From positions 1,922,001 to 1,986,000 of the forward strand of contig OZ017746.1 of assembly GCA_963969365.1 (NCBI GenBank): 64,000 bases of DNA, in the 5' to 3' direction. This DNA is from Asterochloris sp. CNOR1 (lineage: Eukaryota; Chlorophyta; Trebouxiophyceae; Trebouxiales; Trebouxiaceae). The translations under genes were made by a program, and so were the position numbers. The notes under the pieces were generated by a model that made no database searches, had not been told where the DNA came from, and saw only the letters and a list, made by a program, of their open reading frames with translations. Of this stretch, positions 7,593-58,900 are shown one piece after another (the stretch's first letter is position 1; the number at the start of each line of letters is the position of its first letter).

Positions 7593-9726
7593 ATGGCTGG
7601 GGGAGGTGCGGAGCCTGACAGTAAGCGCAGCAGCGGCAAAGTGGAAGGCTCGGCAGCCGGAGCCAGCCCCTCAACCGCAGCGCAGCTGTTTCAGAGCTAC
7701 CTGCAGGCCTACGGGGGCAAGGCGACTCCCAATGCGCTCCTGCCGCCGTTCCCAGGACTGTTTTCGGGCCAAGTGAGCTGCTGAATTGTTGGAGCAGGGC
7801 CCCCATTGTGCATGCAGGCAACTTGGTGCCTTCCCTCCCTGCAGCAAGTCCTCTATGGGGGCCTCCCCTTTGGTCTGGTGCCCTTCGGGCTGCCCAGCGG
7901 CGGTGCTGACATGGCGGCCGCCCCACCTGCGCATCAGCAGCCCAAGCCCCAGGTGGTGTCAGGAGAGCAAGTGCGTGGCAGGCATGCTGGGGGCTGACAG
8001 AATGCTGCCCAGATCGCTGAACGCTGATGTGTGGGCTGATGTGGCGCATGACCTGGCACAATGTTGATGTGGGCTCAGGAGCAGCTAGCTGCTGGCAGCC
8101 TTGGCCTGCTGGCTTGTGAGGGACCCCTGAGGCTCATTGCTGCATGAGTTTGCTGGTCCTCAAAGCCCCTAAAAGTGGCCCTCATCTACTCCAGCTGCGT
8201 GAAAACCAAAGACTTGATCCTGCAGCCTGCCTTGCTCTTGCAGTCAGAGGAGCGCACAGCGCCCCAGCTGCACCGCAGCGCAAGCCTGCCAGCAAAGAGG
8301 CCTCGGCCGGAGCCAGCTGCGGTCTCAGAGGTGACATTCTCATTAGCAGCTGCTCCCCCGTGCCCTGCATATGCCCACAGAGCACTTGTTCTACTGAGTC
8401 TTGGCACCCATTGGGTGTACAGCCCGCTAGATGAGCAGCATCCTCTTGTGCAAATGAATCCTCATTGCTTGCCTCCATGTTGGCCATAGTCAGTCAGCTG
8501 CATGCTGCTGCCTGCAGGATGCTGGCCTGCTCCTGTTGCCTGCAACCAATGGCTTGCCAGCACATCGGCTGTTGTGCTGCCTGCAGGATGCTGCCCTGAG
8601 CGACGACGAGCAGGACACCACCCAGATGCTGCAGCGCGACAACTCCCTCAGGTCGGGCAACCAGTCACCCACAGAGGGGGCCCAGGGTCTGGGGCGGACC
8701 CAGAGCATGTCGGCTGTTGTCGCGCAGCGCGGCAAGGCAGCCGTCGAGGTGCAGATCTGCTTGCTGTGACTGCTGCATCTCCACTAGAGGTCATCAATTG
8801 CTCCATCTACCCCTGGCATCGGCAATAAGCCTCAGCCCATGCAGCCCTCTAGGCTTGCTGGCGCAGGGCCGACATGAGCTGCACCTATGAGGCGTTCCAA
8901 TTTGCAGCCCTTGAATCTTGACCTGCAAGCCCGTGCTGCGAACAGCTCAATCGGGAGTCCGCCTCGCATGCACAGCAGGCTTCTCTCAACCTGTGCTGCT
9001 CTCTTTTGCAGGACGACCGGGAGGTGAAGCGCATGCGCCGCAAGCAGTCCAACCGGGAGTCCGCAAGGCGCTCGCGTCTGCGCAAGCAGGCCGAGTGTGA
9101 GCTGCTAGCCATCAAGGTCACTGACCTGGAGAAAGAGAATTCAACGCTGCGCATTGCCAATGGGCACCTTCAGGAGCAGGTCAAAAGCCTGCTGGCCCAG
9201 GTGGGTGCTGCGGGCCTTGTCAAGGTGGGTGGGTGCAAGGCAGTGTGTCCTGCTGTGTTACGCTGCCGCAGCCAGCCCACTTGGCAGCTCTGGCTGCAGA
9301 GGGATAGGTCAGGAACCTGCCAGCCGATGTGGTCTCCGTGCCCCTGCCTGCTTGAAGGCAGACTGGAAAGTCACCGGCAGCAGCCTGCTCCTAGGCAAGC
9401 CTGTGTCATGACTGCAGCTGCTGATGGCAGAGTTATAATGGTGCCACCAGCGCCTGGCTTTCATGAACACCTGCTGCTGAAGCTCTAGCCATTTGTCTCT
9501 CAAAAAGCCCAGGCCTGCTGACTCAGGCTGGCACCTTGCCCATCTTGCCCAAACATAGACCGTTGAGGTGCAGGACTGAGTGCCAGCAGGCCATTCAGGT
9601 GCTTGTATGTTTGTTGCGGCATGCCTGGCCCGTGCTGACTGCAGTTGTTTGCTGCCTGTACAGACCTTGTCATCCTCAGCCTCTCATGTGGTAGTAGAGT
9701 CCCAGCCCACCAAGCAGGCGTCCTGA
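7593..9726 (+). CDS. Plant-type G-box-binding bZIP transcription factor
   Basis: Nuclear DNA-binding regulator. Six exons: MAGGGAEPDSKRSSGKVEGS (from 7593), with LFQSYLQAYGGKATPNALLP; VLYGGLPFGLVPFG (from about 7844); SEERTAPQLHRSASLPAKRP (about 8245-8331); DAALSDDEQDTTQMLQRDNS (about 8588-8748); the bZIP exon 9012-9199; and a short last exon 9664-9726 ending SQPTKQAS. The basic region is NRESARRSRLRKQAE with the invariant N-x7-R spacing. It is followed by a leucine zipper with regular Leu/Ile positions (ECELLAIKVTDLEKENSTLR). The Pro/Gly-rich N-terminus with PPFPGLFSGQ and YGGLPFGL resembles the proline-rich multifunctional region of plant GBFs. The intron before the bZIP exon contains a decayed copy of the basic region (see findings). 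The last exon keeps phase after LLAQ, so the end is well supported. Confidence 0.92.
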
Positions 9727-11050
9727 CTTCCTTCTCCTGGCTGATCAAATGCCTCTCCTCCCCTCAGCCTGAACACGAAAGTCCTTTCTGCCTGACAACG
9801 ACTGACTGTGGCACCCAACATGGTCTCAGCCAACCAACCCTCTTGAGTACGCGTGAGAGCAGAGGCGAGCACACCATGAGACTAGAGATACCTGAGACTA
9901 GAGTCGCCAACAATTCTTGTGGGCCATGGGGCCATGCTGTATTTATTATACCCTGGCTGGTCATTCCATCAGCTTCTGTGTGCGTGAGTGGATCATGCCG
10001 TGTACAGTCTGACTCTTGTGTGCCTCCTTGGTTTGCTAAAGATCTTTGTGAGCTGAAAACCTGCAATTTTTCGATTCATACAATTCTGATGCAATACAAT
10101 ACTCTTGCAAACGGCAAGTCTCAAAGCTGTTTCTGGTCACAATGCTCAGGCCTTCATCAAATCAAGAGCCATGATGAGCTATCACATTGGGGTGCAGAGA
10201 TCACTTTGGGCAACCTACAACAGCTGTTGTGCAGGGGTCCAGCATCTTGCTGCTCAACAAAAGCAAGTCCTCCTGTGCAGTACTATCTGGCTAGCTTTTG
10301 GTGTGCCAGCTGGGGTCACTGCTTGTCAGATGCTTGACGGGATGTGAGCATTGGAACACTGCAGCAACCGTCGGTAGTTGTGAGGACAAAAGCTCACTCA
10401 GAGAACATTGCTGACTTGAAGCAACGGCTGGAATTCTGTTAGATAGCTGACAGCCCCTGTACATGCAGTGCACCTGGGCAGGGTTGGTCTAGATTCACAT
10501 ACTTCTGACCAGGCAGCGACCTTGTTGGCACAGAGCAATTGAACCTGCTATCGATGATTCACCTGGTTGAGAGGGGCCAGCAATCTGCCAGAACCAAAAG
10601 TTGGTGTTGGCACTGCAGCCAACTTATAACGTGCCCACCTCTAGGGCCGTCTCAGCACTCTCCAGCTCACTGAGCAGGGTCTCCCATCAGTCGACTACGT
10701 TTGCTCCACGATGGAGCATAGGTCAAGCTGACAGTCTGTCTTCGTTTCGCCTTCAATGGTGTTGCAGCGCTGAGACGTAGGTGAGCACAAGCTTGCTCGC
10801 TTTTAACGGGGTTTGACTGTTACCCAGCGGTCGCCTGTCTCAGCGAATTGTGGCGATTACAGCGCCACTTGCAGCAGTCGGCTCTTTAGTCTCGACTGTT
10901 GTTGGCCTTCCTGTGCATGCAGATGCCATCTGAGGCAGCACATGCACATTGCAGCAAGTGCAGCCACCATGTTTGAGCTGCAGGGTCCCTCCAATGGCCA
11001 CAGAGCACTGGGTCAGACATTGGTCCAGGGGCGCAAGCAATGGAATTGGT
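9727..11050. other. Gene-poor stretch: bZIP 3' UTR and upstream region of the next gene
   Basis: About 1.3 kb without a supported exon. A long open frame covers 9645-10337, but its composition is unlike the neighbouring exons and it matches no motif. The left part is likely the bZIP 3' UTR. It is more AT-rich than the coding sequence around it. I found no tRNA-like fold, transposon ends or simple repeat. Confidence 0.4.
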
Positions 11051-12105
11051 ATGAGTGATGCCAAGACCTCCTACAGGCAAGCACTACAGCCTGTCCTCAT
11101 GCAGACTGCACACATCTACACACAACAGCTGACCACCTACAGGTCTGGCGTCTGCATTGGCAATTGGGTGGAGGCTGATGTTGCGCAAGAGCTGGCAGCG
11201 CAGGCGACGTCTGCCAGGTTTACGGCCACAACAACCGTGCAGGACACCTACAGACCAGAGGTGATTTTGCATCACATGGTGTACGTGTCATCAAGCAGCC
11301 CCGGCACTTGGCATCACACCCTTACGCTTGCGGTTGCGCAGGGGCGGTATGGCAATGCAATGCTGCTCAGCGCGGTGCGGCAAGATTTGGAGCGCCAGCA
11401 CGCATGCACTGGGCGTGAGATGCTGTTCAAGCATGGAGGCATGGGGCAGCCCCCTGTCAGCTGCTATGCGTCACTGAAAGGCCTGACAGATGGTGAGCAT
11501 GCCCTGCAAATGACAAACATGGTTGCAGCCTCTGGCGATGCTGACCATGGCTTCAGGTGGCAGACTCATCGGCTGTTGGCCCTGCTGCAGCCCAAGTATT
11601 GGAGCTGCGACAGCCCAAAGTGGAGAACTTCCTTTGGATAGGGCAAAAGAGAAATGACAGCCAGGTTCCCTTGTCTGACAGCCGGCTGCAGCGCCTGCTG
11701 GCCAGCAAAATGCAGCAATGGAAGGCTGACAGAAACTGCCCTCGCTTCACAACCACCAGCAAGGTGCGGGCCAGGCACCCTCATGACTTGAACAGACTTG
11801 ATGTAGCACACACTCACTTCATGTTTCCCCTGCAGGACTCAATGGACAAGGTGGCACACCTGGCACGTGGCCATATGACAAAGCAGCCCGCTTTGGCACC
11901 CTCTTCCGCGGCAGAGGGAGGTCAGGGGTGAGTGACTGTGTTTGTCTTGTGCAGCACTGTTCACAGGCCTTTCCGCCTGATAAGTATTGCAGCGTCACAG
12001 CTAGTACCATGTTGCTCCTCCAGGGCACAGATTGGGCGCAAGGCTAAGGGCCCATGCTCCGCAACTTTTGATGCTTCATGGAGAAAGACTGGGCTCAGAC
12101 AGTGA
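11051..12105 (+). CDS. Unrecognised protein with GNWVEA motif; possibly axonemal microtubule-inner-protein-like
   Basis: I cannot assign this gene with certainty. From an ATG at 11051 the frame gives MSDAKTSYRQALQ, then LTTYRSGVCIGNWVEADVAQ, RFTATTTVQDTYRPE, and after 11340 GRYGNAMLLSAVRQDLERQ and GREMLFKHGGMGQPPVSCYA. A donor after GLTD (near 11493) joins to DSSAVGPAAAQVLELRQPKV, ENFLWIGQKRNDSQVPLSDS and RFTTTSK. The next exon is DSMDKVAHLARGHMTK. A strong GTGAGT donor near 11927 suggests a final exon (about 12022-12105) reading AQIGRKAKGPCSATFDASWR; without it the stop is at 11929. The GNWVE motif after a Tyr/Ser stretch and the two RFT.TT...D.(Y/M) segments recall small flagellar microtubule inner proteins (for example the CFAP68/CFAP107 style). 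That is inference from memory of motif style, not a demonstrated match. Confidence 0.42.
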
Positions 12106-12263
12106 GCCTGTGGGCCCCTTTACCCATTTCATTGGGCACGACAGATGGCTGCTGCAATGCAATGGCAGAAGGCCTTTTTGCTGCAGAACCCCATAATCAG
12201 CTAGAAGACAACAGGGCAGATCTTTAAATGGGAATGAATTGAAAGCAAAGGGACAATGGCGGG

Positions 12264-15200
12264 TCATGGGCCATTGTGGAGAGACATCTGCAGCTTGATC
12301 ATGCAGTGTAAAATTGTGAGATCGAACTCCTCCAGGCGAGCATGCAGTTCCACTGGCCGCATCTGAGCAGTGTGGAGGCTGATGGCAGACACTGAGACGA
12401 TGCTTAGCCACTGGGGCCCTGAGGCAGGCAGGAGCCTTGCACCTACACGGCAAACCATAGATTGGCAGTGTGGGATGGAGGCACGGTGGAGAAGAGGCAG
12501 CCCTCTGCACTGTGACACCATGATGCCAACCTCATCTGTCAGGTGCAGCGTGCAGTGCACCCTCACCATGCAGACCCAGCACAGCCAGCACGTCTAGCCC
12601 GCCATTCTGAAAAACGACCAGGGAGCCCGGAAGCAGCGCAAGCACGGGCGCTGCAGCAGCCAGCACAGGGGCATGGTCCTGAGCGCCTGCTAGTCTGTCC
12701 CCAGGCTGGAGGTGCAGAGCTGCGTGTGCAGCAGGGCAGTAAGCCAAGACAGGGGCCAGTATCCTGGGAGGGAGATGCGAGCCACCACTGGGAGGTGAGC
12801 TGACAGTATTGCATGCCAATAATGTGGACAACAGAAGGTCAGAAGACAAAGTCTGAGAGAGGCCGGAGAGGGAGAGGTATGAAGTGCCACCTGCACGGCA
12901 CAGGTGCTCATTGGTCAGCATGATGGTCCAGTGAGCACCCAGCGTGCAGCAAAGGCAGCTGCCTTGCTGAGCGCCTGAGGTATGCAGCAGAGACTCGGTG
13001 GCAGCCGATTGAGTGGGTGCCTCACCTGAGTGGCGCGCATCTCGCACAAGGGCGGGCTGCTGGCCCACGCCTGCAGAGGCTGCCAGTCCCGTGCTGACGG
13101 CCCCTAGCAGGTCCAGGGCACCGCTGAGGGGCAGGCCAACAGCTCCCAGCAGCCCCTGGCCAATGCCTGCAGGCCAGCAGTGATCAAGGGGCTTGATCAG
13201 AGCCTGCTACATGACGAGCTGATCAGCTAGTTACAAAACACAAGCTTCCAGCCAATCCTGTCAGTCTGGGGCACAACATGTGACAGCCTGTGCATCAGCT
13301 GACAATCATCAAGAAATCAGAGCGTTGCAGTGCCCGCTGTCCTCTGCAGGAGGTCACCTGACAAGATGCTCTGGCCGCTGCTGTAGCTCTGCATGGGCGT
13401 GCGGACAATGCCAACCAGCCCGGCAGCAAAGCCGCCATACAGGCCCTGCAGGCCGGCAGCGACCCCGCTGGCGAGATGCTCCACGCGCTGCGGGGGCAGG
13501 CCCCTGCAGCAGCGGCCAGCCATGTCCTTGTAGGGAAAATGCCAATGAACTGTGCTGCACATGACAACAGTGGTCTGCTGCGCCCCCACTGCTGCTGGCT
13601 GCACCCATGTTGGCTGCATGCTGGTGCTGCTTGACGCGGGCCAGGCAGCCCTGTGAATCAGAGGCTTGAATCGGCTGAGCACGCTGGCACAGGTCTGCTC
13701 TGAACCCACTGATGCAGGACTGGCCCCAGGCTGGATGTACCCTGGCAGCGCTTGACGCAGCAAGGCATGGTGGTCAGAGCTCAGCAACATGATTGCGTGT
13801 GCATGCTTTGCAACTTGCAAGCCACACCTCTCCTGCCCTCTGGCGACAACTGCGCGAATCAGGACCCGCGAGAAGGCACCGGTGAACCCGCTGATGGAGG
13901 CCAGCGTCCACCCCGAGACATGCCGCACCAGGCTCGCACTGCCAGCCCCCATGCCCCAGATGAACTGCAGCCACACACGCACCTTGCAGGGTGCTGAACT
14001 GCCAGCTGTAATGCCGTTGATGGCAGAGGCAAGCTGGGCAAGCATCCACTCCCAAGATACTGCAAGGTGCAGCAGCACTTTGGTGCAGGGTACCATTGAT
14101 CGAGGCTCCCAGTGCTCAGGAAGCGCCTGGAACAAGCTGTAGTACCATCTGCCTTGTGCATGTGGCTGTGCAGAATAAAATCCAGCACAGACCTGCTTGT
14201 CTGCTGCTTAGGCAGCACACTGCCTGACCTTTCCAAGCAGTCAGTTTGGAACATGGGCTGAAGGCTACTCACTTGGGATGGGGAGCGTGCCTCAATGGCT
14301 GCCAAAGGCATGGCAATCAGGTCAGCAAAGCCCTGCCCCACAGACTGCAGGAGCCCCGTCGGGTTCAGCAGGAGCTCCAGCGAGCCAATCATCTGGGGGG
14401 CGTTGAGCAGCGCCTCAGCCACATAGTGGGCCAGCAGCCCGTGCAGCATGATGGACGGGCGGAAGAGCAGGCTGTCTGCTTGGACTGCGGGCAGGCGCAG
14501 GGGTGACCTGGGCAGGCAGCACAGCTTGGTGTGAGGGCGTGTTGGCACCCTGCTGTAGATGCATCACATGCCTGGCCCTACAGCTGCAGCTCCTCATGTG
14601 CACGCCACAGATTTTTGGCAGGTCAGGCCCAGCAGGTGGCAGACACAGCTTGATGTAGGGCATGCCCAGGTGGCAGCTGCCTGCTCAGCTTCTTCAGGAT
14701 ACATTGTATGCAAGGCCCCCGAGGTCACAGAGGAGCCCTGCCTGAAGCCGAGGGCAGTCTCTGCCTGCCTGACCTGTGGGTGTCCAGAGCCATAGCCCCG
14801 CGCGTGATGTGCAAGTCCACCAGCAGCTGGAAGCGGCTGATGTGCGCGTGGCGGACCAGCAGGCGGCTGGCTGATGCCCCCAGCGCCTCTGCCAGCAGCT
14901 CTGCTTGCAGCTGCCCCGCAGGAGAAATCTGCCCCAGCGCCTGCCCTGCTGCAGGTGCAGGCAAACTGGCGTCCTCAAGCCTGCCCTGGCGCTGAGCGCC
15001 CGGAGACGCAGAGCTGCCAGTGCTCGCCACGGGGCCGGCACCTGGAGTCAGTGCTTCATGTTCCTGCCTGCTGGGGCTGCTGCTGGGGGCTGGGCTGCCA
15101 GCCTGGCGCATGTCCGAGCCCAGACGGTCCAGGGCCTGGCTGAGCTCAGTGTTGTTGCGGGCGTGCTCCAGCAGGCGGCTGGGGTTCGGCACTGCTTGGC

Positions 15201-18200
15201 TCCACCCACCAGCAGGCCCCCTGACCCAAGCAGCACCCTGGGGTGCACCCTGCTGTGCGTGGCTGGTACCAGGGGCAGGCGTCCCGCCACCTGCAGGTTC
15301 CCAGGACTGTGAGCTGCAGGTGCCACACACAATGGCGCTGCTTGTGCTGCAACAGGCAAATAGGACAAGCGATGGGCACAGAGCCCTGCAGGCGGTGCAT
15401 GCCCCACCTGATGCTGCGCTCAGCAGCTGCTGCAGGCGCTCCAGGAATGCCAGGTGGGCATCATCGATGGCAGCAGTCACTGTGGGCAGCTGCACCCTCA
15501 GGTGCTGCACCCAGGTGTTGCGGAAGGACATGGGCGGCGGCGGCCAGGCTGAGGCAACCCGGCAAACCTGCAGACAGATGGGGGAATGTGGCTGCAGCTT
15601 CCCTACAGTCCTTAGCAGGTCTGAGCAAATGCGCTGCAGCCCACAGATTGGCCACGGCTCCGCTGGCTCTGGAGGACTTCACATGGCTCAAGCACGGTGC
15701 AGTGACCTACACTGCATTGCAGGAATCCGTGTGGCATCCTCAGCTGTCCATAAGGCCCTCCTTTACGTCAAGGCTGCCCATCAAAGCAAGAGTTTGCCTG
15801 TCATGGCCAATCACTAGCGCCCGCCCCTCACCTCCAGGTCTACACAGAAGGGAGCCACTGTCCCCTTTGCTGACCTGCCCAGCGCGTTTTGGCCAGCAGC
15901 TGAGGCAGCCACAAACTGTGTCAGTACAGGGTGGCTGCTGCCCGGGACATAAGAGTCCAGCTGCAGCCCCTCTGCCTGCACGTGGGCACCCATGGCCACA
16001 CAGGCTGAGTGCCCCTCCGCACCTGCAGCACGGCAGCTTCAATTTGCACAGAGTTTCCAGGCCATATCGGAGCGATGCAGCATCGACATGCAGGCGTTGC
16101 ATGTGGCATGGGCCCTTCAAGTTGGCTGATGATGGAGCAGTGCAAGGTCAGGTGGCACCCTTCTGTCGCATTGCGCGAGACTGACTTTGGGCAGGCGCTT
16201 CTCGCTCGCCTGAGCATTTGCTGCCTCAGCTGGCTGAGGTGCAGCAGCAATGGGTGTGTCGTGTCAAGCAGAATGGACAAGTGCCCAGTGCAAGTGCCAA
16301 CCTGGGCGCCATGCCCTGAACATATGCAGCCCCAGCTGGCTGAGGTGCAAGCAAAACATCTCCACACTGGGGCTCAGCTGGTGCTGGTGCTGGTGTGGCT
16401 GTCGCTGGCCACGCCACCCTCTGGACGGCTGGGCAGGGGCTGGCCCCACCAAGCGGCGCCGGCCATCATCCCACAGGGAAAGCTGCAGAGCTTCGATCGA
16501 CAGCGTCACCGTGACTGGGACCCTGCTGCTGGCTGCTGCAGCTGGGAGCGGCTCCTCGCTGCTGGGCAGCTGCGGCTGGTGGGAGGCAGGCTTCACCAGG
16601 AGCTTCAGCGTGGCACATGCCCACTCCATCTGCACCTTGTACAGCCCTGCAGGCACAGCATGCAAGGCGTCACATGTTACACGTGCCACATTGGCAAGCA
16701 GGCAGTCTCTGTGATGCTCAGCAATGCATGCTTTGCCAACTTCAAAGCTAGGCCTACAGGTCTAAGCGCAGTGCCTCACCTGATGCAAAGGTGCCGGGCC
16801 GTAGGGCAAGTGGAGCTGACCACTCGCCTGTGGCTGAGGACCTGAATCGCACAAGCAGCTGCCGGGAGCGGGGACGAGCGGCTGCCTGCCCAGTGGCCTG
16901 CTCCAGGAAAGCCTCCTCCCCCTCAGAGTCGTCACCTGCACCATATTGTTGAAGATGCTTGGTATCGTAGAGCCGCTTGTGAGGCTACATTGCTGCTGCT
17001 TCAGGAAAGCCTCCACCCCCTCAGGTCGTCACCTGCACCATATATTTGAAGATGCTTGATGTCACAAAGCCGCTTGTGAGTCTACATTGCTGCTGCGCCA
17101 CAGGTTTGCAGCAAGGTACTTGCTGTCTGTGGCTCTTGATGTCGCAAAGAGGACGGTAATGCCAAAGAGTGACCGGCCACAGGCGGACTTGCACATCTGC
17201 CGACAGCTGCTGCTGCACAAATGTATGGGGCTGAAAGGGGCAGAAGGTGGGGTCCTGCATGGAGACAGCAAGCCATGCAAAAATGACTGCATCACATCAC
17301 ACAGGAGGCATGCTGGGCACGGCAACAGGTGCCTTGGGTGGTGAGATGCTTGTGAGGCTAAGGCTGGCTGCCACTGATGCACCAGCACCACTGACAAGCA
17401 CATGCCCTGCCATGAGCAAGAAGCATGGCAGCTGTGTATTCCTATCTGCGAGAACAACAGGGTCATGAACTTGCCTTCTGCAGCATTCTGGTCTGCAGCC
17501 AGTCCGGCATCTCTGTCCGCCTGCACAACGACTGTGTGCAGCGGCTTGCCCAGCTGCAACTCGCCGAGCTTGTCCCTGGCGGGCAGAAACAGGCCGACCT
17601 CGATTGCCGCGGGGGTCGCATTGGCCACGCGGCAGGGCGGCTGGCGGTCCTCAAACAGCACCTGCACAACAGCTTGCTGTGTTCAAGTGCAAGGCCGCAG
17701 ACAGCTGATGGCCTGCACAGAACACTTGCAGTTATTGAAGACCCTCTCTGGCCAGCATAAAGCTTGCTGAGACTTCTGACATGAGGAGCCGTGCTGCCCT
17801 TCATTCAAGATGCAGGGTGGCCAATACTTCGAGCATGGGTGAACCCGTTCAAGCCTTTTCTAACCAGGAGTAGCAGTAGTGGTGGTACTAAGATTGCCAA
17901 ATAATTGGAAGGCTGACTTGGACATAGAGCGCCGCAAAAGTCTGCATGCAGAGCTACTCACCAGGTGCATGCGCCCCGCTGTCTGCAGGATCCTGTAGGA
18001 AAGTAGCACAGGGGCCCCATTCTGCCCCTGCAGGTGCAATCGCTGTCGCCCACACGGCTGCGACAGGGACAGCATGCACTCCGATGTCTTGGTCTGGCTA
18101 TGCAGGACACTGCCCATGGAAGGGCTGGAATGAAGCTGCTGCGGGCTGGCTGGGCCGGGGCTCTGTTGCCCAGGCTTCAGGGTGAGCCCCAGGCCCACAA

Positions 18201-32723: not shown

Positions 32724-34742
32724 ATGTCAGCATCAGCTGCTCTGCGGCGCACCAGCCGTTCCAGCGGCAGCGGCCAGCTGACGCCCAGCAGGCCCCCGCC
32801 CCCTCCCCCATCGGTGGCGCAGGCTGCAGCAGCAGCAGGTGGCGTGGTGCCCCAGGCACAGGTGAGCCAACACTGCGCGCATCCTGCAGGCCATGCGCAC
32901 ATGCGAGCCGCCATCTTTATCCCCAGGCGTGCCTGCATGCAAGGCACAGGCTGCAGCTGCGGCAGGTGGCATGGTGCCTGTGCCTCGTAACCTGCTGAGA
33001 AGCTTGAAGGTGCAGACAGCGTCTGGAGGATCGCAGCAGCTGGGGACACTGATCTTGCCCACATTCACAATGCAGATGGAGTACTGCATCCGGTGCTTTG
33101 TTAGGTGGGCAGTCTTTTCGGCGCTCGTCAGCTGGGCGCGCTTTCAGCAAGCACTGCCTGCACTGTGCATTGCCTGCATTGTACCTCTGTCATCTGCAGG
33201 TGCGGGTGACAAAGAATGTTGGTGGGGATGTCAGTCTGATCAGCTGGGAAGACCCCGTGCTGCCTGCCAAGGAGGTGTACAGCGCAGTGCTGACTGCTGA
33301 TGGGAAGCATGCCCTGGTCAAGACACCTTCAGGTGAGGGCAGCAAGACTGACATCTTGGCAACTTTTGTATTTTGCCCTGCTGACAGGCAGGCTGAGCCA
33401 ATGTCATGTGAGCAGCAGCAGGGACCCATGCAGAGGCATTGCTGCCACCCCAAAGCAGTGGGCATGACAGCTTGCGGGGCCGGCACATGTTGGGGCAGCT
33501 GGAACAGCCATGGCGACCTTGTGTCATGACTCCTGGGAATGCGTTGGAGCTGCTGGCTGCCACTTTGTGGGGCAGAGCAGGTGGTCATGCTGCTGGCTGC
33601 TGGTTCTCTCGTCTAGCAGCATTCACAAACTCGACCCAGCTGGCTGCAGATGTGGTGGGCCAGAGCAAGACGATGAGGCTGCTGGCTGCCTTTGCTGTAC
33701 CCTCAGCAGCGAAGCCCTGGTGCACGCTGGCTTCAGACCTGGTGGGGCACAGCAATACAGAAGTGGTGCTGGCTGGCTCATTGGACCCTCTCAACCCACC
33801 TGGCTGCAGACGTGGTGGGCCAGAGCAAGACGGAGGTGCTGCTGGTCAGCGAGACTGCAAGCCCCAGCCTGGCCGACATCATTCTGGGCCCTCTGAAGCA
33901 GCGAGAGGCGCAGGGCAGCCCCCAGCAGGCTGTGGGCTTGCAGGCAGGGGCCACTGACAGCCCAGTGGGGACGCTGTCAAATGCCAGCAGCTGGGGCACC
34001 CCCACGCAGGCATCCCCGTTGGGTGTACAAGGGCAGAGGCAGCTGCAGGCGCCAGTGGCTGGGAGCTCACCAGGCAAGCTGGTTGCATGGTGTCCCCCTG
34101 CTGGGCATGGTAGTGGGCTCACCAGCTGCACTGGGTACTGGCTGGGGGCCGCCCAGGCAAGGAGTGCACTCCCGCATTTCTGCATGAATTGCCCTGCACT
34201 GTCTCCCTCCAAGGTGTATGCACTTCCACCAGGGAAGCATGAGCAGGCCTTGCATGCAGGGCTTGATGTGTCAACTTTGCTCTGGGGCCAGTCATCAGCT
34301 TCTTGTATGCAACCGAGATTGATGTGAGCACTGTGTGCTGCTTCAAGTGGCTGAAGCTGGTGCATGCTGCTGTTGAGGGACATCTGCCCACCCAGCACAT
34401 TTGATGTCGTGCAGCTTTGGGGCTGCCGTGCTGGCTTTAGCCCAGAGTTTTCGCAACTTGTCAGATCGCCTAGCTTCACCCTTGGCTGAGGTAGATTTGC
34501 CGGGCAGTCATATGTGCAGCAGACTTGAAAGTGCTCAGGCTTCACCTGCCCACTGTGCAGGAATTCAGCTGGGTCCCCATGAGCCAGCGCATGCCCCGCC
34601 AGCCATGGGCTTCAGTGCTGGATCCCTCCTGGGATGCAGGTACAGCACAGGGGCCAGCAGTGATCGCGGGTGGGCAGCAGGCATAGGAGCGACACCTGGG
34701 CAGGTGCGCAGCCTCCGCGATAAAGTTTGCCTGGCTGCCTAA
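32724..34742 (+). CDS. Unrecognised Pro/Ala-rich protein with exon duplications
   Basis: I do not recognise this gene. A first exon (possibly opening at a TGCAG acceptor at 32664, with an ATG at 32724) reads MSASAALRRTSRSSGSGQLT, a run of prolines, and VAQAAAAAGGVVPQAQ. It joins in phase to 33201-33331, VRVTKNVGGDVSLISWEDPV and YSAVLTADGKHALVKTPS. That joins in phase to an exon starting at 33810, DVVGQSKTEVLLVSETASPS and LADIILGPLKQREAQG, with a Gly/Ser/Pro-rich tail. A GC donor (CCAG|GCAAGC near 34074) and an acceptor near 34560 lead to IQLGPHEPAHAPPAMGFSAG and a stop at 34742. The strand, phase joins and codon pattern support a real gene. The regular strand-like central part suggests a small folded domain, but no family came to mind. 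Decayed copies of two exons lie in its introns (see repeats). Confidence 0.5.
32820..32990. repeat. Exon-segment duplication, period about 127 bp
   Basis: CAGGCTGCAGCAGCAGCAGG (from 32820) followed by TGGCGTGGTGCC recurs as CAGGCTGCAGCTGCGGCAGG (from 32947) followed by TGGCATGGTGCC. The first is coding (AQAAAAAGGVVP); the second lies in the following intron or an optional exon (AQAAAAAGGMVP). Confidence 0.75.
33640..33860. repeat. Three copies of an acceptor plus exon start
   Basis: CTGGCTGCAG|ATGTGGTGGG at 33640, a mutated copy CTGGCTTCAGACCTGGTGGG at 33727, and CTGGCTGCAG|ACGTGGTGGG at 33800. They encode DVVGQSKTMRLL, DLVGHSNTEVVL and DVVGQSKTEVLL. The third continues as a long open exon; the other two appear to be intronic relics or alternative exons. 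Confidence 0.8.
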
Positions 34743-36676: not shown

Positions 36677-36737
36677 CATACTGTCTCAGCATGTTTTGTC
36701 ACAGTTCTGTTTAATGATTAAATGATCTGCATGCAAG

Positions 36738-41141
<4,404 letters not shown>

Positions 41142-41262
41142 GCTGGGAACCTTGATCTTGTAATGACTGGGCTAGCGGAAGCACAGATCAAGGGACAAAC
41201 TGCTGTAATTGCACTGCATTTGGCAGGCTTGACTGAAACGTTGACCCTTCTGGTGCCGCAGC
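41142..41262. promoter_or_regulatory. Short bidirectional promoter, DHFR-TS / putative mitochondrial protein
   Basis: The two divergent start codons (41141 minus, 41263 plus) are only about 120 bases apart, so both promoters and leaders must share this interval. Inferred from position; no clear core motif is seen. Confidence 0.45.
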
Positions 41263-42809: not shown

Positions 42810-42875
42810 GGTTGGGGGTGCACTGAATGTGGAATGACAAGTCAGTCAATATGCTATGTTTGCTGTGACGGGGCG

Positions 42876-45800
42876 TCAGGAGGCAGGAGCAGAGTGGTCA
42901 GCAGCAACGGAGCTGTCAGGTTGCTGGCCTGGCTGCTCCTGCTCCCGGCCTTTGAAGGCAAGCTGCTCTATCATGAACTCGATCTGGTCCTTGTACAAGT
43001 GTTTTACATCCATGAGGTCGTTTCTGAGCTCCTCTAGACGTTCATCCTTCTCCCCTAGCATCTCTGTGGCTGCTGCCAGCTGCTGCTCCACATGCTGGCG
43101 CTCCCACTGGGCCTGCTCCAGCTCTGCCTTTGCAGAGGCAGCAGCATCCTCAGCCCCAGCTGATGCCACCAGCTCCTCAGCTAGGCTGCATGCATGGAAA
43201 GGCACCTTGAGCATGTTGTCCTCGCAGGGCGGCTGCACCTCAGCCCAGGCTGCTGCAACAGGCTCCTCAGCCAGGCTGCACGCACACAAGCCAACCTGAA
43301 GCATGGACTGCTTGAGCAGCAGGCAGAACAGGGACCTGGCTGCAACCTGAGCTGTGGAAATAACGAGCAGTCAAGTACACAAAAAGCATGCAGGCTGTGA
43401 TGGCCTCCTGTACGACACACTACCAGGCAGAGCCAGCACAAGATGCATGTCCCCCATGCATCCCAGAGCTCCACCTGTCTCGCGTGGCTTCAAGCCTTGC
43501 CAGCTGATCTTGCAATGAAACGATCTGGTCCTCCTTATGCCTGACAGCATCTCTCAGGTGCTCCAGCTCTGCTGCCAGACCCTTGCCACTGCCAGACGAG
43601 CTGTACAGGCTGGGCCCTGCACAGCAATGTCTTATGTCACCCCACCATGGCCGCAGCAGAGTCAAGCAAGTGCATGGCAGCTGGAAATGCCCACATGGCG
43701 ACTTACAAGCAGGCCAGCCTTTGTGACCGTGGCCTCAACCCACCTTGACCCCAGCCCTGCCTACCAGGGTCTCCTGCAGCTACGGGGCTGCCTGTGCTGC
43801 TGTGGCTGGCCTGCCGGGCCAGATGCTGCTTCAAAGGGGCCAGATGCTGCTTCAAAGGGGCCAGCTGTGGCTCCTCGCCAACCCTCACCAGTTTCCAGGA
43901 GTAGCCTGCAGCCACAAGCTGCCTCAGCAGCAGTCCAGCCATGGAGCTGTCCGTCTAAAATGTACAGGTGCTTGTGCTAGGCGGTGCTCACAGTCCAAGG
44001 TGGCCGCCACTCTGCACTGCCCGCCCCGCAGGGCCAAGCATGGGCCCATAACCCTTTGGGCCTGTTGCTCTGACCCTAGGTGACACGGCTCATGAAGGTG
44101 CTCCAGCAGGTCCAAATGCATTACAATCGATCGATGCACCTGGGGCTGCCATAGCGGGGGGCTCCCCTGCCGCCACAAACCCGCCGCTGCTGGTGGAGGC
44201 TAGTCGAGAGGCAGCCACGCGCTGCTCCATGACCTGCAGGCGGGCGTGAGCCTCTGCCAGCGCCTCTGCCCCGCTGCGCTGCTCCAGCTTGACCTGCAGC
44301 AGACAGCAGATGTTTTCAAGCAAACCCACTGAAGCAATCACCAGTGTGGCCCGTCAGCCCTCTGCTGAAGACCAGGCTTAGCTGGATAGGAGGCGTGAAG
44401 GCCTGGTCTGGGCTGCCAGCAGTGCAGGTGGCATTGAGAACATGCGCAGGCATGCTGCCTTCCTCTGCTACCGCCTTTGAGCCGCCTTTGACAGGCTGAC
44501 ATGGTGGGCAAGAAGGCAGGCAGGTCCGTGTTAGTCTTTACGCACCCTCAGAAAAGGGGGCAGAGGGCGAGCCAGTCAGCATGCCTGACCTGCAGCCTGC
44601 ACCTTGGATGTCACATTGTGGGCCAGTTGTGGGCCAGCCAGTGACAGCTTTTGCACTGACCTGCTCAGCCATCATGGCCTCAGCCTGAGCATGTTCCTGC
44701 TGAGCAGCAGCCAGCACCTGCTGGGCTGTTGCCTGCCCTGCCTCTGCCCGCTGGATGCGGTCGGCCCATTGCAGCTGCTGCTGCTGCACATCGGTGAGCT
44801 CTGCAGCCAGCACTTCAGCCTGTCTGCTGAGCTGCAACCTGCCAGTGTGCAGGCACGCATTTGCTGCCTGCGCATGATGCAGCAGACGCTGCAGACTTCA
44901 AATGATGCTCTGCATCGCAGCCCAGCACACGCTGCACTGCTGCCCCACCAGCCTAGGACCTGCAGACACTGCCTGCCTGCATTCTAGCGCAGCAGATGCA
45001 CCTACCTGCACGCAGGTTGGCTATCTCTCCTCTGGCCGCCTCCAGCGCTGCAGCCATGCCATTGGCCCGCGAGTTGGCGGCCTGCAGGCGCTCCCCTGCA
45101 ATGCGCTCACGCTCCCCTGCACTGGCTGCCCGTCCCTCTGCCTGGCTCAGGCGCTCCAGCAGGCTGCGCTCTGCTGCCGACCAGGCCTCAGAGTTGGCAG
45201 CAAGCCGCTGCCTGCACGTGAGACATCACCTGATTACAGCAACTAAGCATCAGACGTCCCTCAGGAACCTGCAGGGTTGATCGCTCACCCCTGACTTGTC
45301 GCTGGGAGCCAGGATTGACCCACAGCACAGCAGTGCCTGCATCAATGTCTGCTGCGCACCCCACATGGCAGTCAGCTGACCAGCGCAGCAGTGCTCACCT
45401 GCATGGCCTCCAGCTGGCGCAGCAGAGGCCGTGTGGCCTCGGGGATGTTGGAGGCCAGCTCCTCGTGCCGCGCCTCCGCCCCCTGGCAGCGTCGTTCCAC
45501 TTCCCGCAGCTCTCGCTGCAGCATGTCCTCCCTGCAGGCAGGAGGCTTGACCTCAGCTGAACATTGCTCCCCAATCTGGCCACTGACTCCTATCAGTGCA
45601 CCCTGCAGTGCTGCGTCTTCTCCCGGCGGGGTCCAGCAAGTTTGGCGGCGCTCCAGCTGCCTGTGCTGGCGCCCAAACGCTGCAGTGGCCTGCATGCCAG
45701 AACCTGCATGCCGGACTCGGCCAAAACACCCAGCAGCAGCGTACTGCCAGTACGCTGTGTTGAGGAAGTGCATGTCGAGCATTTCGCAGTCCCACCTGAG

Positions 45801-48800: not shown

Positions 48801-49521
48801 TTGGGCCGGAGAGACGGCCGCGACCCTACAGAGCCACCGCTGGCTCTCCCTCTCCTGGTGCTCAGCCCAGCAGGGCCGATCTGTGGGCCTGCCTCTCCTT
48901 TGGCATCAATGGGCTCCTGCAATGAGGTCTGGCTAGACTGATCCGGCCAAGTGCTTGACTGTAGGGCCGTCCCGTGCCTGCACGGGCTGCCAGGTGCAGC
49001 AGGTGACTCAGCTGCTGGCCTCTCCGCCTGCAGGGTCACGTCGTGACCTTCAGTGTGCAAAAGATGGACAGTAGCGACATATCGAGCTGCAGGGGGGAGT
49101 GGCCCGCAGGAGCGGGGACTCAAGCCTGCACAGGTGTCTGCCAGGGGCTCAGGTGCTCTGTCAAGGTTGCAGACCTGGCCATTTGGAATTTTGGCCTCGG
49201 CCTTGGGTTGCGTAGGCGCTGCGCCAGAGAAATCCCCAAATTCTCCCCAGCCGTCTGCATGGGACATGATTGTCTGATTGAAGTCGGACCAGCTTCTTGT
49301 AGATGCCACTCAGGACAATGGCAGACACAGAGAGGCTCCACACCTAGACCCCCGCCACCTTGCCATTCCAGAGAGGCCTTGCTCTGCTGCCCTCCAGTGC
49401 CATCAGTGCTCTGGCTGGGCCGCAGGTTTTGTTCAATGTTCTGCTCAAGATCGGCCTTCAGCTTTGAAAAGCTCTCCTGGAGATTGCCCAACCCAGAGTT
49501 AAATTTGAAGTTAGAGAACAT
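42876..49521 (-). CDS. GC5/TMF1: TMF-type golgin (golgin candidate 5)
   Basis: Long coiled-coil Golgi tether that binds Rab6-type GTPases. The start at 49521 gives MFSNFKFNSGLGNLQESFSK, LKADLEQNIEQNL, like the N-terminal amphipathic segment of plant GC5. A large low-complexity exon down to about 47.95 kb is rich in Ala, Gln and Ser, followed by many coiled-coil exons. Diagnostic stretches are CQGAEARHEELASNIPEATR, PLLRQLEAMQ (plant GC5 has an almost identical ESTRPLLRQIEAMQ), and the C-terminal TMF domain. There RD|SLAEELVASAG joins over an intron and leads to LAAATEMLGEKDERLEELRN and DLMDVKHLYKDQIEFMIEQL. The stop is at 42876. The start is the one nearest the conserved segment; an in-frame ATG at 49539 is also possible. 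Several internal exon borders were not resolved. Confidence 0.9.
43141..43320. repeat. 90-bp duplication of an acceptor plus exon start in the golgin gene
   Basis: AGCTCCTCAGCTAGGCTGCA (43171) and GGCTCCTCAGCCAGGCTGCA (43261) are 90 bases apart within two similar units. On minus, the left-hand copy is the working acceptor (SLAEELVASAGAEDA). The right-hand one lies upstream in the intron and still reads CAG|CCTGGCTGAGGAG, coding LAEEPVAAAWAE. Confidence 0.8.
43819..43864. repeat. 21-bp tandem repeat, two full copies
   Basis: CCAGATGCTGCTTCAAAGGG plus one G, at 43819-43839 and 43840-43860, followed by a partial CCAG. On the minus strand it encodes APLKQHL twice, in or beside a golgin exon. Confidence 0.9.
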
Positions 49522-49951
49522 TGTGGCGTCTTCCTTCAATGGACAGAAGTGAATTGGCTAAGCCAGGCAAGCGCCATCAGTCAGTCAGGTGAGCTCAGGG
49601 GGTTAGCCCTATCATAGGGTTTAGTCAGCAGCGAGCCTTCGAAAGGCACAAGAACAGCGGCTTCATTTGCGGAACAGCATGGCTTCATAGAAGGATGCTG
49701 TCACAGGCTTCACTCAGGGAGGCCTGTGAGTTGTGGCAGCCTGCGAAAGCATGTTTTCTGCTCCAGGCCTCAAACCTGGCATGCTGCGTTGTAGCGTCCA
49801 CCATACTGTTCTGAGACGATGACTCGTTCTTGGCCATCACATGGCCAAGGCTACTGACATGCCGCCTACCTTGAGAGTTGTGCATGGCAACTGCTTCTGG
49901 CAAGATCAGAGTGGCTCAGCTGGCCTTGTGCATGCCCTGCAGGGCGCTGAG
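49522..49951. promoter_or_regulatory. Divergent promoter region, golgin / BRWD gene
   Basis: About 430 bases between divergent starts (49521 minus, 49952 plus). An upstream in-frame ATG at 49841 could extend the BRWD protein by 37 residues, but the added sequence has no family resemblance. No core promoter element is clear. Confidence 0.35.
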
Positions 49952-52900: not shown

Positions 52901-55900
52901 TGTCATTGTTTGGTGCTGACTGCAGGCACTGGGAGAGGCCTTGCACCTCGTGGTCTGTGCCTGGAGCCGGGATGGGCGCACTGTCATCGCAGCTGGCAAG
53001 GACGGGCACATCTACATGTGGGGGCAGGAGAGGCAGCTCGCTGGCGCAGCCAGTGGCCTGGGGAAAGCAGCTGCCCTGCCCTGCGCTGCCGCTGGCAGCA
53101 GTGCGAGCACCAGCCAGCAGCCCACGTTTGTGTCCCACCCGTTGGGTGCTGGCCCAGTGCCGGCCACCACAGACGAGCTTGACCACTGGCACCCCCAAGG
53201 CCGCCTGTGCGGCCACACAGGCTGCATCAACGCCCTGCTGTTCAGCAAGGATGGGCAGCAGCTGGTCAGCGCTGGCGCAGATGGCACAGTACGGGTGAGT
53301 AGGCATGGTTCCTGTCGTCAGCAATCTGTCTAGTGTGGCAGGAAAGGCAGTCTGCTGGCTGCAGAGGCTGCAGAGGGCAGCAGCTGGGAGCACCAAACCT
53401 GGCAAGGGATTCACAGGTAGAAGCAGCATCTGACAAGCACACCACAGTGCATCAGTGCATGTTGCTTCCCCAAGACGCCTGAGCTTGCAGCAAGTAGGGT
53501 TGTGCAGTAAGGCATTCACCTCAAGCATCAAGCACTGTGTGCAGGTTTGGCAGCACTACGATGAGTCAAGGGGTGCTGCAGCCTGGCGGCCCAGGTTGGT
53601 GCTGGTGGCTCAGCTGGAGGAGCAGCAGCCCGGCCGCCGCCGGCGCAAGGCCCCCAAGCCTGTGAGGGACCCCATCTGGACGGCTGACGGACTCAGGGTG
53701 AGAGCTGCAGCTGCTGGCCTCAATTGCCAGAAAGCCCTGCAGAGCGGCTTGCAGGAGGGCCGGTGCAACAGCAAGTCTTCCAAGTGGGGCCTGCAAATTG
53801 CCACAAGATCTGCAGCTGCAGGACCAATGTCAAGACTGCGAGGACACCCAGGGGCCATGAGCTTGCGGTTGCAGCGCCCCTCAGGCTGGGATGCAGGGCT
53901 CCTACCTGCACTGCACATCTGGAGTTGACTTGCATGCAGATTGCAGCAACTCAAGGCAGCACTTCAGGGGCAGTGCGTACCAAGCCAGCGTGGTGCCGCA
54001 AACCTGAATGCTTCCAATGGCAGCTTGGTCGGTGCCATGCAAGCAGGTGTGAGCTGCCCTGCTCTAATCTGTGGGTCCTCCTTACTGCAGGCGGTCACCA
54101 CCTGGATGTGCAGAAAGCATTGTACTTGCATGGGCTTTGCAGCGTCCGCCATGAAAAGCTATGTGGGAAGCTGGTTCTACGTCGTATCTCAGTACCCAGC
54201 ACCTGTCTCGCCTGCCTGACGGCAGAGCCGGGCGGCGAACTAGCATCGTGAAAGGCAAGCACGCCTGGCAAAACTGGCTGCAGGTGCTGGCACCCACAGG
54301 CAACACAGTCTTTGTGTGGAGTGCCCACTCCGGCAGTAGGCTACACACGCTGACTGGCCACCAGGGCATCATCACAGTTTTGGAGGGACACCCTGTAGAG
54401 CCTCGCCTAGCCTTCACAGCCGATGTTGAAGGCGCCATCTGTATCTGGGACGTGGAAGCTGGGGCGCTTCTGAAAAGGTGTGACTAACGCCTGTGCTTGT
54501 CTGCACTGCGCACTCATCACGCTTTCTAGCAAGAAGGATTGAGCTGAACAGGAGCAATCTCGAACTGGTGCATCTCCTGCATCTGAGAAGGCAGTGCTCA
54601 GTGCGCAACCTACATTTTGCATCCCTGCTGCGCAACACTCAAGCTGTTTCTTGGATTGGCCCTCCCTGCTTGCTGCTGCTGCTCCCTCTTAGACACAGTC
54701 GTGCCTCCCTGTCTCTATCCTCACGACATCATGCAGTGCAGCAGACAGATGTTTGTTGTCCCTATGTGCGATGCTTGTGCTGAAGCTGTGCAAACCCTGC
54801 AGTTTCTCCACCCGGCATACAGACCCCAGCGGAAGGGGCTGGGTCGACCCCTTGCCAGTCCTGGACGGTCGCTGGCTGGCAGATGGGAGCGCCCTGGTGG
54901 TCAGCGACAAGGCCGCCAACTGGCACTGCTACGGCCTGGGGCCTGGCTTGAGCAGGTGGGGTTGCAGGGCCACTGCAGACGACATCATCAGGCTTGGGAC
55001 ACATGCACCTTGGCCACTGGCTTCCCTGCTCACCCTTTGTGCGGACCCGAACAAAGAACTTTCTCGCTACAATCCACCATCAGGTCCTCTCTCAAGCGCA
55101 GTACGGCCCTCAGCTTGAGAGACTCTGAGGCTGTCACTTGTGCTGTGCAGGCAGCGCATAAAGTTTGATCAGTTCTTTGTCGAGGAAAATGAGGATCTGG
55201 AGTGGGATGCCCGCGGCAATGTCATCTTCCTGCACACCCAGCGCCCAGCATTTCTCTGCAGGTGCGGCAGAGGCGCCTCACATGCTCACCCTTGCCTTCA
55301 GTCAAAGCTGCCCTGCTGAGCTTTCACAAGCGCATGCAGGCCTGTCCCCTCCCTATGCACCAAGCCATGACATTCTGTGTCATTGAAGCATTGCACACTC
55401 CGAAATGCTTGCCTGGCCTCAACCCCTGTGCATCAAACCCAGCTGCGCGTATGGCGCTGCCCAGCCTGATTGGCTGCATCCCCTGGGCCTGCAAAACAGT
55501 CCTGCCTGTGGAGCCAGCCCCGCCTACTGGGGACTGTCCAGTGGAGCCCAGTGTACACCAAACTTCACACAGAAGCACTGTACTTTGTAGGGGCAAGCTG
55601 TGCAACATTGCCAGCCAGCCCTATGGGCAGGCATACCAGGAGGCGTATCAGACAGGCAACCTGGGCACCCTGAGCGTGGATGAGGCGCAGGACCGCAGTG
55701 CCTGGCACTTCAGCCATGGGCGCCCAGCTGGTGCTGATGAGGTGCCACCAAGCGTGGTCCTGGCGAGGCAGGCAGCCAAGGTGGGCTGGTGCCTGTGTGG
55801 GCAGGCATAGATCAGAGCTGATTTGCTGAAACATTTCCAGGTTGGAGGCCGCACTGACAGCTGTGGTATCTGCTGGCTGCTGGCAGGCGCCCTGCAAACC

Positions 55901-58900
55901 AGAAGGTCACGTTTGTGCAGCTGCGCTGTACGCGCTTTGGCAGCTTTGCTGCTGAGCAGCCTGCACCCAGATTCTGGCAGGCTTACATGTGCCGAACATC
56001 AGTGAAGTCTGGGGTCCCAAAAGTGGAGCTTGACCTGCTGCAGGACAGACGGCGACCTGGCACCTTCCACCTGGCTGAACTTGCTGCTGAGGAGATGTAT
56101 GCTGAGCACCGGCAGAGGGAGGCTGACGAGGCTGCTCTGGACCAGGCCACAGCTGCAGAGCAGCAGCAGCAGCCGTCAGCCAGCCAAGCAGTCCCGCCGG
56201 CACCTGGTGCTGGGGCCGCTCACAGCGGGACTGTACCTGATGCAGTCGATGAGGTGAGCTGGAGTGTTGTGGGAGGTCAGCGCCCAGCAACTGCACTTCG
56301 CTTCCAGGTGGGCCTCACCTCTGGCCAGCAGAACAACGGCAGTGGGGCCATGTCTGCTGGAAGCAGATGTTGTTTGAGTGCTTCCTGCAGTAGCCTGAAG
56401 ATGGCATCACAACCAGGCGTCAGAAGCGCCCCTGCTTCGGTATGGTCACCTCTGCAGAGCGACTTCCAGTATGATTGGCACACATCTGCAGGCCCTGAGG
56501 CCCGTCAAGGCTGCTGCACTGCCCTGGATGCAGTTTGAGTCAGGTGCCCATACTGAGGCAGATGAGGACAGTGACTACCTGGCCTCAGCTGACCTGGAGG
56601 ACGATGATGACCTAGATGCAGACGCCGACTTCATTGCTGAAGAGGAGCGCTCACCTGCTCCCAGCGGTGAGCTGCTGAGCAAAAGATGTTTGAGCTTTAT
56701 AGAAAGCTGGGCCCAAAGGCACTGTGAGAAGCTTTTGGCGTGCTCCTGCCAATACATGATATGATGACATTGATGTTTTTGATGGCAATGATCCATCATT
56801 GCAGAGGGGGGGCATTCTCCCGTCACAATACTTGAGAGCTGCTAGGTAAAGGTAGATTGGTTCATAACACATACTTGACGCAATGACATGAAAGCATGTG
56901 TGTGGCATACCTTCAGGGCACCAGACCTCTGAGTTGGGGAGCAGTCAGGCAACCATCAGCCGCCGCCCGCGGTGATGCCTGCCCTTGGGACAAGGGTTGC
57001 TGCTCTCTTGCAGCTCTGTGAGGCCATGTGGCAGTGGCGCAGTGGGCAGCAAGACTGCGCCTGTCAGCCCAACCTATGTTCGCCTTTCAACACAGTCTGT
57101 GTATGCCCTGCAGAAGGGCAGCAGGCGCAGCCGCAGCAGGCAGGGATCAGCCACCCCAGCAGGGCTGATAGGGCGCGGCGGCGGTGGGAGCAGCAGGTCC
57201 CTGGCAGCGAAGATGAGGACGATGGCTCCCTCAGCGACGACGGGGATGACCCTGACTTGGAGGCGCAGATGCAGGTGGGCTTGCCATTGTGCAGCAGCTG
57301 GCTGCGTGTTCAGGGACCAGCAAGGCTCACAGGGTTCTGCCTTAGATGCAGGTGAAAGACTGTTGTGCTGCTGGGCATGGGTTGTACAGACACACTCCAG
57401 GTGGGGTTACACAATCTAACCTAGAGGTGCAGTTGCAGGGAAGTGCCTGGATATGCAATGGCTATCTGGATGGGCGGGGACCAGCAGGGCTGAGACCTGA
57501 AGATGTAGAGCCAGATTGGGCACTGCCCTGGATTGATGAGATGCTGGACATGGCCTGTGTACACAGGCGCAGCTGTGGGCAAGGCACTGGCTGCAGAGCT
57601 GCTGGGCTGTGTAAAGTCGGTTGGGCTGGGTGCTGGACATGTAGATGCAAGTTGTGCTTCATCTGTGCGCAGGCTGCCAACCTAGGTCCTCAAGGGACAC
57701 ACCCAGGTGGCGCAGCCATCCCTGCAATGGCTGCTGTGCCGTCTGCGCGTGCTCTGCATGTTATTGACTTGGCTGGGGGCACTTAGGATGGCTTCTGGGG
57801 CCTGGAGGCAAAAACTTGGCACCTTGGCTGTTGTTATGACCAGCGAATGTCAGGGTGGGGACTGGAGGCTCATTGCACGTGAGCCACCAACCAATCACTT
57901 GGCAGTCCGCATACATCGGGACTTGGAGCACATGTGAAAGTTTGGATGTGTGCATGGCCAGGGGAACCAATGCTGGGCTGGAGGCACATATGCTGATGGG
58001 CCTGCTAGCCTGCACAGACTGGTAGGCCCTTGTGCATGAAAAGGGAGCCATCGAGTGGGCTGCGCCCTGAAGGTGCAGCCCCCTAAAGGGGGGGCGTTGG
58101 CAGGGGCCCAGCCACACTGTTGTTATGGGATAGGGACAGCAAGCTGGTCTGGCCATAAGGGCCGAGATTACAGAAGCACTTGGTGGCCGTTCCAATGAGG
58201 TGGGGTCACCTGCCTAGCCCGCAGAGTTTATCTTCTGGGCGTTCCTGCAGCAACCTGTCGCATCGAAGTGGAGTCAAACAGCCTGTGTGGTAGCCAGCCA
58301 GCTGCTGCCAGGCAGCTCCCAAGGTCTGGCGCAAAGCCCAGCGCTGTGCAGGCTGAACTGTCAGAGAGCGGGAACGAGGCAGGGCCCTCCCGGCGTCAGC
58401 CCCAGCGGCGGCGGCGGCGCAAGCGGCGGCGTCCGCAGCAAGAGCCAGAGCACGGCGAGGAAGAGGCAGGGGAGGCAGGCTGGCAGATCCCAGACCCTGC
58501 AAAGGAGGCAGCTGATGCGGGTGCTGTTGGACTCTCACAGCAGCCGCAGCGGCAGAGGCGCCGACGCAACAGGCAGCAGCCACAGCAAGTGCCCGACAAG
58601 GACGAGGCAGGCTGGGCCGCCCCGGACCCTGTGAGGGAGGCAGCTGACGGGGATACAGCTCTGCCTCTGCGTCGGCCGCAGCGCCAGAGGGCGCGGCGCC
58701 TGAGGCAGCGGCCGCAGCACAGGTGTGACGACAACAAGGCAGGGGAGCAAGACTGGCCCGGCCCAGAGCCTGCAGAGGAGGCAGCTGCTGCGGGTACTGG
58801 TGGCCTGCCACGGCGCCCGCAGCGCCATGTGCGCCGGCGGCTGCCACCAGAGGACTCCAGCTCAGACCAAGCGGCAGGAGGCGATGCTGCACCATCCTGG

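Follow-up and report, generated by a model that had tools for sequence, protein, structure and literature searches.

Short tandem duplications and decayed copies of splice junctions in introns of Asterochloris sp. CNOR1

Introns of unrelated genes in the green alga Asterochloris sp. CNOR1 host degraded copies of neighbouring exon edges and splice sites. The copies were noticed in a stretch of 64,000 nucleotides of contig OZ017746.1 (C1:1922001-1986000, hereafter the window), in genes encoding a bZIP protein, a VPS13-like protein, a Pro/Ala-rich protein, a dihydrofolate reductase-thymidylate synthase (DHFR-TS), a golgin-like protein and a WD40 (BRWD-like) protein. Random tandem duplication, together with selection and unequal decay, probably explains the copies which cross splice junctions, and no special intron-making process has to be invoked. 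Short duplications, mostly at offsets of 20-200 bp and sometimes repeated into small arrays, would arise randomly along the genome. When an acceptor or a donor is duplicated, the spliceosome would keep the outermost site and the mRNA would be unchanged, while the inner copy of exon edge and splice site would turn into intron and decay. Duplications internal to exons would persist mostly if their length is a multiple of three. Copies crossing a junction would be easier to detect than those lying wholly in introns, since their exonic arm decays slowly. The molecular step may be the fill-in of staggered breaks or of adjacent nicks, or slippage.

The sample analyzed spans 304 kb, and includes the window, 100 kb of C1, 100 kb of a second contig (C2) and 40 kb of a third one (C3), out of an assembly of 56.4 Mb in 21 contigs. 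Self-matches are ungapped alignments at offsets of 20-400, scoring at least 17 (+1/-1). Self-alignment against shuffled controls, a check of the kind envisaged in the earlier note, bore out the copies, as the window holds 25 local direct self-matches, and five dinucleotide shuffles 0-2. In the 304 kb, 168 local direct self-matches passed a complexity filter, versus 3, 10, 3 and 6 in bands of equal width set at 3, 6, 10 and 15 kb; with this filter off, 182 were counted, and two far bands had 4 and 3. A weaker excess persists at offsets 401-781 (18 matches in the 304 kb). Inverted local matches occur at chance level (7 vs 4, 304 kb). Since the direct excess is far over chance and inverted matches are not, the copies likely stem from direct tandem duplication. 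The 168 pairs collapse into 116 loci, 32 of which hold more than one pair. That duplication is recurrent, direct and local, of varied ages and spread over unrelated genes, as the earlier note had it, is supported by these counts.

Gene models were obtained ab initio, by a two-strand hidden Markov gene finder trained on this sequence itself, and the splicing of each gene discussed below is the predicted one. The models include 692 introns in 304 kb (median length 203.5 bp), with CAG/GTGAGC-like donors and very strong CTGCAG/G-like acceptors. The G+C content of the window is 54-64% in 2-kb blocks; for Asterochloris glomerata, a genome of 56 Mb with 56-62% G+C over 98% of its length and 9 introns per gene has been reported (PMC6652019). 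Raw models leave 4-11% of the sequence as intergenic, versus a share of about 26% given for Asterochloris in the same source. Raw models therefore probably over-call genes, and for this reason the main test was rerun at five exon-score cut-offs, keeping 760, 633, 564, 495 and 424 exons, respectively; by our own arithmetic, about 526 exons are expected from published densities. Five proteins or parts of proteins from the window were searched against Pfam; four had domain matches (thymidylate synthase and dihydrofolate reductase, bZIP, WD40 repeats, ubiquitin-conjugating domain), and the fifth, a short piece, had none. The names VPS13 and golgin are labels of the earlier note with no domain search behind them, and for BRWD the WD40 part alone was checked. 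A tRNA scan of the whole window found none.

As a first null model, the same 168 pairs were placed at random on the raw models, and assigned to classes, among them donor with a copy in the intron (D->in), acceptor with a copy in the intron (in->A), acceptor with a copy in the exon (A->ex), donor with a copy in the exon (ex->D), intron-intron, exon-exon, exon-to-intron, intron-to-exon and intergenic. Intron-intron pairs are as frequent as expected (43 vs 45.0), and the figures for exon-exon and intergenic pairs are 18 vs 21.5 and 4 vs 10.1. D->in and in->A pairs number 22 and 17 (8.7 and 8.5 expected), exon-to-intron and intron-to-exon pairs 20 and 6 (17.8 and 18.1 expected). Extra sites inside exons are rare, as only 0 A->ex and 1 ex->D pairs were found versus 6.1 and 5.9 expected. 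On raw models the functional site is the outermost rather than the inner one in a ratio of 39:6, which would be about 17:6 by random placement. When exons with a score of at least 4 are kept, the site in use is outermost in 54 pairs (25 D->in, 29 in->A), inner in 1 and exon-side in 0; at this cut-off the 168 pairs include 85 junction-type and 66 noncoding-noncoding pairs, the remaining 17 (15 exon-exon, 2 others) lying outside the comparison. Offsets are divisible by three in 13 of 15 exon-exon pairs, 19 of 59 intron-intron pairs, and 19 of 85 pairs of the junction types. The use of outermost sites, the rarity of exon-side copies and the triplet offsets are marks of purifying selection on mRNA. 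Against plain random placement, D->in and in->A pairs are 2 to 2.5-fold in excess, but this null model ignores selection and unequal decay, and was replaced by a simulation.

In the simulation, tandem duplications are uniform, those changing the mRNA are rejected, and the outermost site is kept. Noncoding sites decay at full rate, exon sites at a quarter of it (other exon rates were also run), and ages are expressed in substitutions per site, the range 0-0.5 corresponding to a constant rate. Per 43 intron-intron pairs, a first version gave 17.4-19.6 D->in and 17.9-19.4 in->A pairs (22 and 17 observed). The odds of junction versus noncoding pairs, observed over simulated, were calculated at the five exon cut-offs in rising stringency. 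Mean identity is about 0.80 in the observed pairs; of three age ranges, 0.1-0.5 best approaches this value, and 0-0.5 yields about 0.85. For ages 0.1-0.5, odds are 0.89, 0.94, 1.06, 1.10 and 1.30 (p 0.57, 0.72, 0.74, 0.57 and 0.11). With ages 0.15-0.5, odds are 0.56, 0.77, 0.83, 0.85 and 1.00 (p 0.003 at the loosest cut-off, at least 0.15 at the other four), and with ages 0.2-0.5 the simulation predicts, on raw models, more junction pairs than observed. The fit is rough, and no special junction process is needed for the observed junction share, though a modest one may exist. The bias toward splice junctions postulated in the earlier note finds no support in the intron-intron share, which is as random, nor in the age-matched odds, none of which is significant in the main run.

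Several observations weigh against the explanation by random duplication, selection and unequal decay. All exons come from ab initio prediction, and too many genes are called in the raw set. The first version of the simulation misfits exon-to-intron (20 observed vs 10.4-12.8), intron-to-exon (6 vs 9.7-13.6) and intergenic pairs (4 vs 8.4-9.2), as well as exon-exon pairs (18 vs 5.2-7.6, a figure depending on an assumed survival of 0.3). Two A->ex pairs emerge once the complexity filter is off, and the golgin pair is of that type. With ages 0-0.5, odds rise to 1.01, 1.23, 1.40 (exon score of at least 4), 1.42 (at least 6) and 1.78, with p 1.00, 0.25, 0.042, 0.034 and <0.001. In a variant run at an exon score of at least 8, the observed junction share of 0.545 exceeds the simulated one, which is 0.455 for ages 0.1-0.5 (p 0.029) and 0.383 for ages 0-0.5 (p <0.001). 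This variant skipped units ending at a junction edge, which the main run no longer does; at the same cut-off the main run gives simulated shares of 0.479 (p 0.11) and 0.402 (p <0.001), respectively. Donor-side pairs outnumber acceptor-side pairs on raw models (42 vs 23, p 0.025), which a symmetric model does not predict; at an exon score of at least 4, the counts are 49 (25+24) and 36 (29+7). The donor side being at least as frequent, the acceptor-linked process proposed in the earlier note has to be given up. Finally, the median ratio of matched length to offset is low (0.34 vs 0.52 simulated), and identity exceeds 95% in just 4% of the 168 pairs, and 4% of the 116 loci, versus 14-18% in simulations at constant rate.

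Young duplications thus seem in short supply, and either duplication was once more frequent, or young events escape the count through some loss or counting effect outside the model. It could be speculated that short tandem duplication formerly came in a wave which has by now mostly stopped, and that many introns grew longer through junction-crossing events, the outer site being kept; exon edges may even have been modestly preferred in reality, by a factor of up to about 1.4 to 1.8. We consider this scenario rather unlikely as a whole.

Less probable still is a targeting of duplication to splice junctions, as might follow from breaks linked to transcription or splicing, such as R-loops at exon edges. 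The surplus of D->in and in->A pairs over random placement would fit, as would the single age-matched variant with p 0.029 at the strictest exon set, and the odds of 1.4-1.8 obtained under constant-rate ages with stricter exon sets. Yet, age-matched odds of the main run are significant at none of the five cut-offs, both donor and acceptor sides are hit, and the share of intron-intron pairs is that of random placement.

The earlier note also suggested that the copies may move acceptors or seed cassette exons, and it could be argued that they are retained as functional alternative splice sites, since AG or GT is still present in many of them. Retention is, however, the neutral expectation: of 17 copied acceptors, 12 still have their AG (11.4 expected from arm identity), and of 22 copied donors, 14 still have their GT (13.0 expected), so that the decay of copied sites is as fast as under neutrality. 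Were the inner site spliced, the frame would stay open in 3 of 39 cases, versus about 5.5% at random junctions, and the DHFR-TS copy at 38138-38168 carries, by eye, a stop in the corresponding frame. A functional role of this kind is very improbable.

About as improbable are short templated insertions made in end joining, whereby pieces of 20-40 bp would be taken from nearby DNA with no tandem duplication of a whole unit. In many matches the aligned part is just one fifth to one third as long as the offset, and a first, permissive flank-extension score (control median 13.6, 16.3 observed) put the junction classes (13.7-14.8) near the control. Templated insertions in end joining should occur in both orientations, and inverted copies are no more frequent than by chance; small arrays in which offsets recur are also present. 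The permissive score was succeeded by a stricter test, in which homology extends beyond the matched core in 30-42% of the 82 loci (of 116) with room for it, versus the 5% fixed by the design of the control. In simulations of full units, flank homology appears in 77-83% at ages 0-0.5 and 15-40% at ages 0.3-0.5, and the observed level is within the range of old full-unit duplications. Homology over the whole unit is clear for VPS13B (97/98 bp); across the 82 loci it is above control, yet weak.

Tandem duplication of an exon segment containing AGGT is a recognized model of intron gain (Rogers model), and the earlier note saw here a genome habit able to create introns. Donor-acceptor self-alignment of the 692 predicted introns ruled it out as a general cause, since the signature is clear (score of at least 14) in one of them, with 0.2 expected. 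At lower scores introns are near shuffled pairs (19 vs 22.7 at 8 or more, 5 vs 4.3 at 10 or more, 2 vs 0.9 at 12 or more). The lone candidate is a predicted 89-bp intron, C2:1008412-1008500, the two ends of which are duplicates of each other (score 30). Window copies reside inside longer introns in the gene models, and recurrent gain by this route is highly improbable. Chance likeness or low complexity of a CTG/CAG-rich sequence with a strong CTGCAG/G acceptor, which may account for weak cases near chance level such as the bZIP pair, can be dismissed for the set as a whole on the evidence of the far-offset bands and the inverted control.

The window loci are listed in Table 1. The earlier note described extra splice-junction copies at eight places by gene name, and the assignment of these places to pairs is our own. 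Six of the eight reach a score of 17 and have an intronic copy, and to this extent the description stands; the bZIP pair is at the edge of chance, and the golgin copy is exonic.

Table 1. Local duplications at exon edges and splice sites in the window
Gene	Coordinates	Strand	Feature	Score and remarks
	5510..5627	-	Acceptor and exon start 5510-5539 (junction 5528/5529), intronic copy 5598-5627, 88 bp upstream in gene	18; 80%; in->A
bZIP	8506..8598	+	Acceptor and exon start 8575-8598 (junction 8586/8587), intronic copy 8506-8529, offset 69	22; 96% over 24 bp
bZIP	8935..9064	+	Exon-start segment 9037-9064, weak copy in preceding intron 8935-8962, offset 102	16; 79%; bZIP_1 by Pfam
VPS13-like	16898..17096	-	Near-complete 97/98-bp tandem duplication over acceptor 16935/16936	56, 25; 72+29 bp, 89-93%; in->A at exon cut 4
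Pro/Ala-rich	32816..32978	+	Exon-end segment (exon end 32861), copy in next intron, offset 127	28; 89%
Pro/Ala-rich	33630..33845	+	Three-copy array, offsets 73, 87, 160; acceptor 33809/33810 in last copy, upstream copies intronic	42, 30, 25
DHFR-TS	37980..38312	-	Exon segment 37980-38010, decayed intronic copy 38138-38168 upstream (offset 158), further copy at offset 148 to 38312	27, 34
DHFR-TS	38991..39364	-	Acceptor and exon start (junction 39007/39008), intronic copies at offsets 93 (38996/39089) and 333 (38991/39324)	20, 17
DHFR-TS	39903..39969	-	Exon end and donor 39943-39969 (junction 39950/39951), intronic copy 40 bp downstream in gene	19; 85%
Golgin-like	43148..43305	-	In-frame 90-bp (30-codon) duplication over acceptor 43275/43276; pair 43148/43238	34; A->ex
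WD40 (BRWD-like)	57252..57491	+	Exon end and donor 57274/57275, intronic copy, offset 164 (57252/57416)	20; 63% over 76 bp

The last copy of the VPS13-like duplication is functional in the model and the upstream one is intronic, the raw model having additionally set a donor in the latter. A 301-bp VPS13B query searched against the whole genome matched itself alone. In the golgin-like gene the model uses the inner (upstream) acceptor and the second copy is exonic, so that the exon, not the intron, has been lengthened. The complexity filter removes this pair and the Pro/Ala pair at 32816-32978, neither of which is among the 168. In the DHFR-TS gene, the Pfam thymidylate synthase match spans the functional exon at 37980-38010. 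The bZIP intron has, by eye, a TTTGCAG near the place expected for the copied acceptor. Further junction-type pairs of the window are 16209/16315 and 34040/34123.

Some additional features deserve mention. At the edges of the VPS13B units (16896-17110) short AGCAG-like repeats can be seen by eye, as microhomology would give. The WD40 gene carries at 58382-58843, within a long Arg/Gln/Glu-rich exon, decayed in-frame repeats at offsets 141, 147, 273 and 282. Locus density is about 8.0 per 10 kb at C3:1000001-1040000, versus 2.7-3.8 in the window, C1 and C2 samples. An array of units of about 81 bp, several of which have a predicted donor and acceptor, occupies C3:1036069-1036532, and resembles a repeated mini exon-intron unit.

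Tandem duplication crossing a splice junction has already been published, in potato. In an RdRp gene, a duplication across an intron-exon boundary gave rise to a new spliced intron and an inserted exon, supported by RNA-seq, while an 83-bp tandem duplication in the first intron left gene structure unchanged (PMC4974935). As in potato, the units found in Asterochloris hold either an intron end and exon start or an exon end and intron start (29 in->A and 25 D->in among the 168 pairs, exon score of at least 4). Unlike the new intron of potato, the usual outcome here would be, judging from gene models, an intron lengthened by a nonfunctional inner copy. In Drosophila, introns are described as derived from tandem duplication of proto-splice sites (PMC2891723; reviewed in PMC3443670). 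There too, and in the AGGT model, duplication yields extra splice-site copies along with adjoining exon. In these accounts, however, the pair of copies makes the ends of a new intron, a form which is clear in a single predicted intron of our set. The mutation in Asterochloris appears to be of this same type, its usual result being a different one. Among the matches listed for duplicated splice sites or intron expansion in green algae, or for tandem duplication at exon-intron boundaries, no title dealt with this process.

Random duplication filtered by selection and uneven decay offers an example of how a random mutation may come to appear tied to splice sites. The combination of outermost-site survival and one-sided constraint supplies a null model against which claims of intron gain drawn from intron-exon self-matches can be tested. 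If true genome-wide, the deficit of young duplications would suggest that repair or replication has changed in this lineage.

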